The notes under the pieces: model-generated
Seen by the model: only the letters and a program-made list of their open reading frames with translations
What the model was told of the DNA's origin: nothing
Databases searched by the model: none
Program-made: the position numbers and the translations under genes
Shown here: one piece after another, positions 38,535-43,512 of the stretch
Layout of the letters: every line of letters begins with the position of its first letter
Numbering within the stretch: position 1 is the first letter of the stretch
NCBI GenBank assembly: GCA_903863195.1
Contig: CAIPAY010000134.1
Coordinates: 1 to 64,000, forward strand
DNA from: an uncultured Holophagaceae bacterium
Lineage (GTDB): Bacteria > Acidobacteriota > Holophagae > Holophagales > Holophagaceae
Reading direction: 5' to 3'
DNA length: 64,000 nt

Positions 38535-38709
38535 GGGTGAGTTCTCCGTCAGAGGCTGCCTCTGTGGCTTCCACGCTAGACGGTAGTGCGCGCCGGTGAA
38601 CCCTCCGGTTCAGAGATAGCTGCCAGTCCGGTCAGTCTCCGGCCCTCGTTTCCCCCGACCCCAACTTTCTCTCTGCGCTATGCTTCCGGACACCTTTCCG
38701 GAGGCAGAC

Positions 38710-39228
38710 ATGTTCCGACGCGTGGAGGACTTCAAGTCCATCTGGCAGCAGGAAGCGGAAAAGACGCTGGCTGTGTTCGCGGCCATCCCCGATGCCGCCG
38801 CCCATCAGGCTGTGGACGCCCAGCACCGCGACCTGCGGCGCCTCGCCTGGCATCTGGTGGAGACCATCCTGGAACTGCCCCAGAACCTGGGCCTCAAGGT
38901 GAAGGGTCCCGTGGCCCTCGGGTCGGACGGCTTCATCGGCGCGCCGCCCCCGACCATGGCTGAGATCGGCAGCGCCTACCGAGCCGTGAGCGAGTCGCTC
39001 CTGGATCACATGGGCAGCTGGAGCAATACGGAGCTGGGCCGCAACTTCACCCTGTATGGCGAGACCTGGACCGGCGCCTTCGCCCTCTACGTCCTCGTCT
39101 CCCACCAGACCCACCATCGCGGCCAGATGACGGTCCTCATGCGGCAGGCGGGCCTGGCCGTGCCCGCCGTCTATGGTCCGACCCGGGAAGGCTGGGCTGA
39201 CTTTGGGCTGGAACCGCCCAAGGTCTGA
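38710..39228 (+). CDS. DinB-family protein
   Basis: A 172-residue four-helix metalloprotein of the DinB family. Metal ligands are likely the His in RRLAWHLVETIL and the pair in VSHQTHHRGQMTVLMRQAG. The start at 38710 has GGAGG five bases upstream; an ATG at 38680 is also in frame. DinB-fold enzymes act as thiol transferases or on damaged-cell small thiols. It is divergent from the cytochrome c' gene. Confidence 0.88.
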   Translation: MFRRVEDFKSIWQQEAEKTLAVFAAIPDAAAHQAVDAQHRDLRRLAWHLVETILELPQNLGLKVKGPVALGSDGFIGAPPPTMAEIGSAYRAVSESLLDHMGSWSNTELGRNFTLYGETWTGAFALYVLVSHQTHHRGQMTVLMRQAGLAVPAVYGPTREGWADFGLEPPKV

Positions 39229-39659
39229 CCTTCTCCTTCCTGGGATGGCCCCGAACCAACACGCCTGAATTTTTCCCCACCATCGGTTCGTCTGGGCGGT
39301 GGGATAGGCCTTGGACTGCCTATAAAAATCTGGACGAAACCACAATTGGGATCACGCCCATCGGCTATGGGTGTAAATAAGGAATGTAAAAATTAATCTA
39401 TTATTATTTAATATTATCGATATTTTCTATGTGAAATCTCAATACAGCCTGGGTTTTTAGTGAAAAATTTCATTATTAAATTATTATGAATTTCTCAATA
39501 AATCATTTAATCAAAAGACAAGCACATCGTTTCTTGTGTCGCTTGACAGGGCCGATCAAGACTTAGAATGAGTGCAAAGTAAGTAATTTTACGTATCTCA
39601 GATCGGGCTGGTCGGCCGGATTCTGCTGGGCGCAAAGCACTCCCTACCGAGGTCAAGCC
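39229..39659. other. AT-rich intergenic island
   Basis: This 430-base stretch holds no convincing gene. Its centre (39361-39540) is about 25% GC by hand count, while flanking genes are about two-thirds GC. It contains runs such as TTATTATTTAATATTATCG and an imperfect palindrome at 39465-39493. A perfect TTGACA lies at the right edge of the AT-rich core. A transferred segment, a silenced regulatory region or a nucleoid-protein site are possible. Confidence 0.8.
39543..39569 (+). promoter_or_regulatory. Sigma70-like promoter at the edge of the AT-rich island
   Basis: A perfect TTGACA (39543-39548) and TAGAAT (39564-39569) are spaced by 15 bases, shorter than optimal. It would transcribe the ORFan at 39660 with an 80-90 base leader. 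Confidence 0.45.
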
Positions 39660-40133
39660 ATGAACCCTACGCCCACTGCCTTGCTGGACCTGCTCCGCAT
39701 GGCCATCATCCGCTGCGGCATCATCCTGCAGAATCCGCAGGGGGGTGACGCTGGGACCTTGGTGATCCAGGTGGCTCCCGGACCCATGCCCCTGGTCGTA
39801 AAGGACCCGTCCGCGGTCCGATTCCTGTTTGTGATGCGGAAGGAAGAGGTCGACCTCGGCTTCCAACTGGAACCCCAGGGAGAGGGGAGCCAACAGCTTG
39901 TCCTTTGGCTCAGCCAGGGTGGAACCCAGGTCGCTGTCCCCGTGGCCCGGGCCACGCCAGTTGGAGTGGGGGCCGGGATGCCGCTCCTGGCCATGGAACT
40001 GAACCTCCGGGGGATCCTCCTGGGGCTCTCCCAGGCCCTGTCCAACCTGAGGTGCCCTGCGACGGTCCGTCCGCAGCCGCTCCAGGCAGGGCAGGCCCAT
40101 GGCTGGGATTTTCGACAGGTCTCAGGCACCTGA
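39660..40133 (+). CDS. Hypothetical protein (unrecognised)
   Basis: A 157-residue protein I cannot assign. It begins MNPTPTALLDLLRMAIIRCG, has a beta-strand-rich middle with alternating Val and Leu (GTLVIQVAPGPMPLVVK), and contains no clear signal peptide or membrane segment. GAGG precedes the ATG by eight bases. It follows the AT-rich island and a promoter candidate, and precedes another unrecognised gene by 32 bases, so the two may be an operon. Confidence 0.6.
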   Translation: MNPTPTALLDLLRMAIIRCGIILQNPQGGDAGTLVIQVAPGPMPLVVKDPSAVRFLFVMRKEEVDLGFQLEPQGEGSQQLVLWLSQGGTQVAVPVARATPVGVGAGMPLLAMELNLRGILLGLSQALSNLRCPATVRPQPLQAGQAHGWDFRQVSGT

Positions 40134-40165
40134 CGCGGCGCCCGTGAACCGAGGTGAGTGGATTG

Positions 40166-40648
40166 ATGCTGTTCCCGGGAATGCTACCCTCCTATCCGCA
40201 GGGCGTGTTCGCCCAGGCTCTGAGTCGAGGGCATGCGCTGCCTGAGCCGGGACCCCTGCATCCCCTCCTCCCGGAGAAGGGGCTGCACGTCAGCGTCTCC
40301 CCGGGGTGTGAGGCCCAGGTGCATTCCTATCTGGGGGAGTTCGGCGTAGGAAGATACGCCTGCGGGATCCTCGGGATCAGCTACCAGCCGGGGTTCCGGC
40401 GATACCTGCCCGACCTTGGGCGCTGGCTCCCCACGGAGGCAGAGGCCTGGTCCTGCGCGGAGAGGCTGCTCAAGCACTTCGCGTCGGGGCTGAGGAAACG
40501 GGCCCTGCTCAGGCTGGAAGAGGGAACTCCTGCCCATCTCGTGCTGGCGGTGGTGATTCCCCTGGAGGGACCGTGCGGTCACGCGACCGCCTGCAGGGTC
40601 CTGGGAGAGGCCTTTCCCCCCAGCCGAATCGATTACAGTCCGAGATAA
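40166..40648 (+). CDS. Hypothetical protein (unrecognised)
   Basis: A 160-residue protein with no family I recognise. It starts MLFPGMLPSYPQGVFAQAL and includes a Tyr/Gly-rich middle (GEFGVGRYACGILGISYQPG). The ATG at 40166 has GAGGTGAG at ideal spacing, a near-perfect ribosome-binding site; an upstream GTG at 40154 lies within that site. Its codon composition is GC-rich like its neighbours, unlike the island before it. It is probably co-transcribed with the preceding ORFan. Confidence 0.6.
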   Translation: MLFPGMLPSYPQGVFAQALSRGHALPEPGPLHPLLPEKGLHVSVSPGCEAQVHSYLGEFGVGRYACGILGISYQPGFRRYLPDLGRWLPTEAEAWSCAERLLKHFASGLRKRALLRLEEGTPAHLVLAVVIPLEGPCGHATACRVLGEAFPPSRIDYSPR

Positions 40649-40791: not shown

Positions 40792-43512
40792 ATGACCCAT
40801 CCCCATCTCCTGACCCGGCTCCTGCAGTCAGGCCTTGCCCTGGCCTTGGTTCTGCCGCTGGCCGCAGAGGGAGTCAAGGCTCCCGCCTCCGCCACCGGCC
40901 GAAAGGCCCAGCTTCCGCCCCTTGTCGATCGGGACAAGTTCTTCGGCAATCCTGAGATCGCCGGCGCCCAGCTGTCCCCGGACGGGCAGTGGATTGCCTT
41001 CCTCAAGCCCTGGAAGGAGACCCGGAACGTCTGGGTCAAGAAAGTGGGGGAGCCCTACACCAAGGGGCGTCTCATCACTGCTGATCCCAAGCGGCCCATC
41101 CCCGGCTTCTTCTGGAGCCGGGACAGCAAACAGATCCTCTTCGTCCAGGACAAGGATGGCGACGAGAACTACAACGTCTATGCCGTGGATCCCGCAGCCC
41201 CGGCCGCCGCAGGCAAGGAGGCTCCCGAAGCCCGCAACCTGACCGCCGCCAAGGGGGCCAGGGCGATGATCTATTCCGTGCCCAAGGCCGATCCCGACAC
41301 GATCTACGTCGGTCTCAACGATCGCGATGCCGCCTGGCATGACGTCTACAAGGTCAAGATCTCTACGGGCGAGCGGACCCTGCTCCGCAAGAACACCGAG
41401 CGCATCGCGGGCTGGGTCTTCGACAAGCAGGCCAACCTGCGTCTGGCGCTGCGCACCACGGAGAAGGGGGACACGGAGATTCTCCGGGTGGATCCTGAGG
41501 GCTTCACCAAGGTCTACGAATGCACGGTGTTCGAGTCCGCCGATCCCGTGGCCTTCCACAAGGACGGGAAGCGGGTCTACCTAGAGACCAACAAGGGCCA
41601 ACGGGACCTGACGGAACTGGTCCTCTTTGATCCCGCCACGGGCAAAGAAGAAAAGCTCGAGTCGGATCCCAAGGGCCGTGTGGACTTCGGCTCGGCCATC
41701 TTCTCGGACCTCAGCGATGAGCTGATCGCCACCACCTACCAGGACGACCGCACCCGGATCTACTGGAAGGACAAGGCCTGGGAGGCGGACTACAAGCTGC
41801 TCCAGAAGCAGCTGCCCGGGCGGGAGATCGGCATGGGCTCCTCCAGCGCCGACGAGCAGCTGCTGATGGTGGCGGCTTCCAGCGACCGGGACCCGGGCAC
41901 CCGCTACCTCTTTGACCGCCGCACCAAGAAGCTCAGCCTGGAGTACGTCTCCCGCGAGGACCTGCCCCGGGATCCTCTGGTTCCCATGCAGTCCATCCGC
42001 TACAAGTCCAGCGACGGTCTGGAGATTCCCGGCTACCTGAGCCTGCCCAAGGGGGTCCCGGCGAAGGGACTGCCCCTGGTGGTGTTCCCGCACGGGGGAC
42101 CCTGGGCGCGGGACGGGTGGGGCTTCAATCCCTACGCCCAGTTCCTGGCCAACCGCGGCTACGCGGTGCTGGCTCCCAATTTCCGGGGTTCCACTGGCTA
42201 CGGGAAGAAGTTCCTGAACGCTGGCAACAAACAGTGGGGCGACCTCATGCAGGACGACCTCACCTGGGGCGTGAAGCACCTGGTCAAGCTCGGCACCGTG
42301 GATCCCAAGCGCGTGGCGATCATGGGCGGCTCCTACGGCGGCTACGCAACCCTCGCGGGTGTGGCCTTCACGCCTGACCTCTATGCCGCCGCGGTCTCCA
42401 TCGTCGGCCCTTCCAACCTGCTGACGCTGCTGGAGACCATCCCCCCCTATTGGGAAGCTGGCCGCATCATCTTCCACGAGCGCATGGGCAACCCCAACAC
42501 GCCCGAGGGCAAGAAGCAGCTGGAGCGGCAGTCCCCGCTGAACTCCGTCGCCAAGATCAAGACCCCGCTGCTGGTGGTGCAGGGCGCCAATGACCCCCGC
42601 GTCAAGAAGGCCGAGAGCGAGCAGATCGTCATCGCCCTCCGAGACCGTGGCTTCCCCGTGGAGTACATCTGCGCCCCGGACGAGGGACATGGCTTTGCCC
42701 GGCCTGTGAACAGCCAGGCCATGATGGCCGCCGCGGAGAAGTTCCTTGCCAAGCACCTCCAGGCCCGGTTCCAGGAGGGCGGGAAGCCCGATGTCATGCA
42801 GCGCCTGCCCGAGATCACCGTGGACCCCAAGACTGTGGTGCTGGTGAAGAAGACGGATGCCGGTTCCGTGGGGGTGCCCACTCCCAGCGCCAAGCTGACG
42901 GCCGGCAGCTACACCTATGTCGGGAGCATCGCCATGGGCCCGCAGAGCATGCCGCTCTCCATGGTCCGCACCGTGAAGGAGGAGGGTGGCACCTGGCTGG
43001 TCACTGAGACCACCAAGCTGCCCGGTGGCGAAGCTGTGGATGCCGTCTGCCTGGCCAAGGACTCCCTGGTACCAGTGAAGCGCACGGTGAAGCAGGGGCC
43101 CGTCACCATCGAGCTGGCCTTTGACGGCGCCAAAGTCATCGGTTCCATGGCCATGGGCGGGGCCCCCAAGCCCATCAGCCTCGACCTGGGCGGCGGCGCG
43201 TTCGCCGACGGCCCGGGAGCCCAAGAGGTACTGGCCTGCCTGCCCCTGGCCACAGGCTACAGCGTCACCTTCCGCAACGTGGATCTTCAGCGCCAGAAGG
43301 TCGAGCTCAAGAAGGCTGCGGTCACGGGCCAGGAAGATCTCCAGGTTCCCGCCGGAAGCTTCAAGGCCTGGAAGCTGGAGCTGACCTCCGCTGAGGGGGA
43401 TCCCGGCCGCACCACCGTCTGGATTGACACGGTCACCCGCAAGGTGCTGAAGACCTCCGCCACCCTGCCCCAGATGGGGGGTGCGGTGCTCACCCTCGAA
43501 TTGCAGCCGTAG
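40792..43512 (+). CDS. S9 prolyl oligopeptidase-family peptidase with extra C-terminal domain
   Basis: A 906-residue secreted serine peptidase. The signal peptide is LLQSGLALALVLPLAAEG. A seven-bladed propeller region covers about 40-400 and an alpha/beta-hydrolase about 405-660. The nucleophile is in MGGSYGGYATLAG, the Asp in GANDPRVKKAES and the His in DEGHGFARPVN. The final 210 residues (about 695-906) form an additional beta-rich domain with APTPSAKLTAGSYTYVG-like strands, resembling a DUF3108-type fold, that S9 enzymes usually lack. A strong hairpin follows. Confidence 0.92.
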   Translation: MTHPHLLTRLLQSGLALALVLPLAAEGVKAPASATGRKAQLPPLVDRDKFFGNPEIAGAQLSPDGQWIAFLKPWKETRNVWVKKVGEPYTKGRLITADPKRPIPGFFWSRDSKQILFVQDKDGDENYNVYAVDPAAPAAAGKEAPEARNLTAAKGARAMIYSVPKADPDTIYVGLNDRDAAWHDVYKVKISTGERTLLRKNTERIAGWVFDKQANLRLALRTTEKGDTEILRVDPEGFTKVYECTVFESADPVAFHKDGKRVYLETNKGQRDLTELVLFDPATGKEEKLESDPKGRVDFGSAIFSDLSDELIATTYQDDRTRIYWKDKAWEADYKLLQKQLPGREIGMGSSSADEQLLMVAASSDRDPGTRYLFDRRTKKLSLEYVSREDLPRDPLVPMQSIRYKSSDGLEIPGYLSLPKGVPAKGLPLVVFPHGGPWARDGWGFNPYAQFLANRGYAVLAPNFRGSTGYGKKFLNAGNKQWGDLMQDDLTWGVKHLVKLGTVDPKRVAIMGGSYGGYATLAGVAFTPDLYAAAVSIVGPSNLLTLLETIPPYWEAGRIIFHERMGNPNTPEGKKQLERQSPLNSVAKIKTPLLVVQGANDPRVKKAESEQIVIALRDRGFPVEYICAPDEGHGFARPVNSQAMMAAAEKFLAKHLQARFQEGGKPDVMQRLPEITVDPKTVVLVKKTDAGSVGVPTPSAKLTAGSYTYVGSIAMGPQSMPLSMVRTVKEEGGTWLVTETTKLPGGEAVDAVCLAKDSLVPVKRTVKQGPVTIELAFDGAKVIGSMAMGGAPKPISLDLGGGAFADGPGAQEVLACLPLATGYSVTFRNVDLQRQKVELKKAAVTGQEDLQVPAGSFKAWKLELTSAEGDPGRTTVWIDTVTRKVLKTSATLPQMGGAVLTLELQP

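Follow-up and report, generated by a model that had tools for sequence, protein, structure and literature searches.

The AT-rich island at positions 39361 to 39540 of the window (the whole 64,000-nucleotide stretch of DNA analysed here) is probably the regulatory region at the 5' end of an operon of two genes, ORF A and ORF B. This promoter reading is the best one because a TTGACA hexamer, a -10 hexamer, an upstream box and a 19-base element are conserved at the downstream end of the island, and AT-richness is kept upstream of them. An AT-rich promoter region is an ordinary kind of feature; what is gained is that an anonymous AT-rich patch becomes a testable promoter with named boxes.

Composition and gene context of the island

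The window corresponds to positions 1 to 64,000 of contig C134 of the source genome G000 (3.6 Mb, 267 contigs, 93% complete); G, C and L numbers designate genomes, contigs and loci. The features of the region are as follows.

38680-39228, + strand: DinB-family gene, left neighbour, syntenic in relatives
39324-39350, + strand: upstream conserved stretch AAAAATCTGGACGAA..., left border of the island
39361-39508: AT-rich upstream segment, 14-25% GC
39510-39535, + strand: conserved box ATCAAAAGACAAGCACATCGTTTCTT upstream of the -35 hexamer
39543-39548, + strand: -35 hexamer TTGACA
39564-39569, + strand: -10 hexamer TAGAAT
39577-39595, + strand: 19-base element AAGTAAGTAATTTTACGTA, just 3' of the -10 hexamer, partly dyad
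39660-40133, + strand: ORF A, 157 aa, no family match
40154-40648, + strand: ORF B, 164 aa, no significant family match
40792-43512, + strand: S9-family peptidase, right neighbour

Between 39361 and 39540, 45 of the 180 bases are G or C (25.0%) compared with a window mean of 67.0%, in agreement with the sequence-only reading, which had estimated about 25% GC. For 180-base windows the mean is 0.67 with a standard deviation of 0.049, and the next-lowest non-overlapping stretch has a GC fraction of 0.517. The best-scoring AT segment runs from 39374 to 39603 (230 bases, 27% GC), so that the island extends about 60 bases further than first described. Its AT-richest tracts are 39371-39430 and 39454-39513. 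The island was said to hold no gene, and indeed it fully contains no ORF of at least 80 aa; the start of a mechanical minus-strand ORF (39507-40100) does fall in its edge.

To place these values in their own genome we used the window together with fetched stretches, 810,791 unmasked bases in all, a sample enriched for islands because part of it was picked for runs of 18 A/T. The island is the lowest-GC 180-base stretch in this sample, which contains 180-base stretches of at most 30% GC at five places:

Island in the window: 24.4% GC at best
C20 near 2000: 25.0% GC, precedes a CheR-type gene
C141 near 19900: 26.1% GC, precedes a MerR-type regulator with a B12-binding-domain match below the Pfam cut-off
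C43 near 2900: 28.3% GC, inside an AT-rich 257-aa ORF
C43 near 34000: 28.9% GC, precedes a MerR-type regulator with a B12-binding-domain match above the Pfam cut-off

Similar islands ahead of many ordinary operons, raised earlier as a sign of normal promoter composition, are thus not what the sample holds; the island is rare, not unique. The 257-aa ORF (L041:2789-3562) has no significant family match and is possibly a recent arrival. The island itself is single-copy in a search of its own genome (the remaining matches were short and weak), the one Rfam match is a chance match outside it, and the fold of the 5' leader is nothing special (z 0.55).

Neither ORF A nor ORF B has a match in Pfam, NCBIfam or PHROGs; ORF B has a weak PADLOC match (E 0.021). 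The structure models of the two (mean pLDDT 76) gave no Foldseek match in the PDB at E 0.001. The top Foldseek rows of ORF B are YbjN/AmyR proteins (E 0.04, not significant), and a second structure comparison gave best Z scores of 3.7 (ORF A) and 6.2 (ORF B), values at which similarity may reflect nothing more than a shared arrangement. ORF A evolves fast, and in 12 of 12 pairs tested the third codon positions are the most divergent, the pattern expected for coding DNA.

Anatomy of the proposed promoter and conservation in relatives

ORF A occurs in 6 of 60 genomes, its own included. A scan of the named collection yielded six ORF A loci, all in 'Holophagaceae' metagenome assemblies, one of them a further carrier, G069; the operon was seen in part of one Holophagaceae genus only. 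The order DinB, AT-rich stretch, ORF A, ORF B is shared by the window, G023, G022, G069, G035, G030 and G027, with lowest 180-base GC fractions of 0.244, 0.317, 0.35, 0.306, 0.311, 0.394 and 0.344, respectively. In all seven carriers an AT-rich stretch (24-39% GC) and TTGACA precede ORF A.

We examined DinB loci from 30 of 48 matches. They comprise 24 non-carriers and four carriers (one cut by a contig end), together with one locus without the anchoring motif and one with 3 bases of room. In 23 of the 24 non-carriers no 180-base stretch is at or below 0.40 GC, and five of these fall between 0.42 and 0.50. The exception is G017, with 0.344 before an ice-binding-type gene. In G003, ORF A, TTGACA and the very low GC are lost together (lowest value 0.428) and a homologue of ORF B is retained. 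In G017, as a separate observation, DinB is followed by the ice-binding-like gene (L184:2352-3107), which has AT-rich DNA ahead of it.

Conservation along the island is uneven. Identity to G022 and G023 is 64-66% over 39311-39360, compared with 40-50% in the neighbouring segments. It amounts to 0.43-0.50 over 39361-39480, 0.64-0.71 over 39481-39508, 84-91% over 39509-39540 and 75-82% over 39541-39600. For comparison, 52-62% of the four-fold sites in ORF A are identical in these pairs, against 75-91% identity over 39509-39600. This profile indicates that the promoter core is constrained and that the AT-rich tract preserves its low GC, with the letters mostly not kept; G023 and G022 are less extreme in this respect (27-49% GC over 39361-39480).

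The core resembles a sigma-70-type promoter. TTGACA is invariant in six of six aligned carriers and is also present in G069. The -10 hexamer is TAGAAT in the window and TACAAT in G022, G023 and G069, each matching TATAAT in five of six positions; it is less clear in G035, G030 and G027. A spacer of 15 bases separates the two hexamers in G000, G022, G023 and G069, which is short for a sigma-70-type promoter, where about 17 is usual, and was missed by a scan for spacers of 16-18 bases. The island had been described as ending at TTGACA; the hexamer is there, three bases beyond the end given, and is one of 12 copies in the window (both strands counted). An imperfect palindrome noted at 39465-39493 is likewise present in the letters but is at chance level and is not conserved in relatives: when the island was shuffled by mononucleotides, 177 of 200 shuffles reached its best palindrome score of 6.0, and the fold of the palindrome has z = -0.45.

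Classical UP elements are located at about -40 to -60. Housekeeping-sigma promoters of the UP type share with the island AT-rich DNA upstream of TTGACA and conserved -35 and -10 hexamers. They differ from it in that its AT-richest tracts are found 30-170 bases ahead of the -35 hexamer, outside the classical position, and in its spacer of 15 bases. The UP position is instead taken by the box, in a segment (39509-39540, 38% GC) that is conserved in sequence. The proposal of a strong upstream promoter element comes close, given the conserved promoter core at the island end and the AT-rich stretch in all operon carriers, but the position of the tracts differs. At up to three mismatches the box was found in 4 of 47 genus genomes, in this promoter only, and the control gave no matches; it is probably the site of an activator or another regulator.

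Based on this arrangement we propose the following mode of action. A housekeeping sigma factor would recognise the -35 and -10 hexamers across the short 15-base spacer. A positive regulator may bind at the box upstream of the -35 hexamer, and the 19-base element, probably an operator, may be occupied by a repressor or some other regulator. The AT-rich tract could assist by bending, by melting, or by docking the alpha subunits of RNA polymerase or a nucleoid protein.

Alternative origins of the AT-rich DNA

The AT-rich DNA might have come with, or been left by, a mobile module of island, ORF A and ORF B that was gained between DinB and its former neighbours. What follows DinB differs within the genus, as seen in G003 and G017, in G027, where a DUF5131 gene separates DinB from the island (by eye, G030 has a similar one), and in G066, where only 780 bases separate DinB from DTD. 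We nevertheless consider such a scar unlikely, as GC is ordinary across ORF A and ORF B, none of nine scanned neighbouring proteins is an integrase or transposase, and the letters of the core show the conservation of a functional promoter. The earlier suggestion of a silenced or transferred segment is also not supported, since DinB and the island remain syntenic even in relatives whose DinB is only 80% identical.

Docking of an AT-binding nucleoid protein or a silencer at the island is a still less probable reading. AT-richness retained while the letters drift would suit it, as would the rare similar islands that precede regulator genes. A search for H-NS (PF00816) and Lsr2 (PF11774), the two families covered, however gave no match in the 93%-complete genome, and a control genome was positive for each. 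Xenogeneic silencing of the H-NS/Lsr2 type thus has no candidate protein here and is not supported. As for a chromosome-maintenance site (origin or dif), an AT-rich, intergenic location is what such a site would have, but this possibility is very remote: it is contradicted by the DnaA-box, dif and GC-skew tests, as the window gave neither a DnaA-box nor a dif-like match and the skew does not turn at the island.

The 19-base element and MerR/B12-type regulators

Within the promoter reading, the 19-base element offers a lead to a regulator. A search of G000 with the ORF A promoter pattern returned, besides ORF A, a match at C43:34070 (2 mismatches) and one at 3 mismatches; the control gave one. 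The C43:34070 match falls in the AT-rich DNA that separates a MerR/B12 gene from a TrpR gene. The element precedes a MerR/B12-type regulator, again within AT-rich DNA, in five genomes (G000, G069, G022, G023 and G003), which makes a regulator of this type a candidate for binding it. On the MerR side, identity of the element to its G000 counterpart is 95% in G003 and 84% in G022, with 30-90% identity in the 20-base flanks. A looser pattern gave 25 matches in 47 genomes at up to two mismatches, against 27 for the reversed control, so the counts alone show no excess; of the 25, seven are at the ORF A promoter and five in MerR/TrpR intergenic DNA, 12 in all. The pattern had been derived in part from its own sites, and the element is supported by position and conservation among orthologues only.

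The carriers G035, G030 and G027 have no close orthologue of the element-bearing MerR gene, and other MerR/B12 paralogues fetched from them have no element nearby. The element is only partly symmetric, and an alternative reading of it is a small hairpin at the 5' end of the mRNA. The MerR island on C141 was rejected as an element site: its version has three mismatches and is not kept in G069.

Autoregulated promoters of the CarH type (MerR/B12) offer a comparison (PMC9304148). The CarH operator is described there as tandem 11-base repeats nnnnTnnACAn. The MerR/B12 gene of G000 likewise has its own AT-rich upstream region with the 19-base element. Tandem TnnACA repeats of the CarH type were absent from four G000 promoters (ORF A and three MerR/B12 upstream regions), and both MerR proteins scanned are far below the NCBIfam CarH cut-off, at 110-115 of 400 bits. 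One MerR/B12-type regulator with a 19-base operator unlike that of CarH might autoregulate and also control ORF A-ORF B, with rare AT-rich islands of 200-400 bases as the shared promoter architecture of this small network; we put this forward tentatively, as a model with a fairly low chance of being right. It would link a lineage-specific operon to a B12-type regulator in a poorly studied phylum.

Further copies of the element with one mismatch were observed in AT-rich DNA at L176:4110-4128 (G023) and L180:2042-2060 (G014). Both follow a gene of 334-345 aa without a family match, away from ORF A, MerR and TrpR. A DUF5131 gene of G016 (L182:1192-2019; compare L181 of G003) has a one-mismatch element directly upstream. 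In addition, contig ends of G023 and G003 (L166, L171, L174, L175 and L177) share the end of an insertion element (...CCGGACACTAGTG) in AT-rich MerR islands. Its flanks in G023 suggest a short target duplication, and it appears that one element has used these MerR islands as landing sites.
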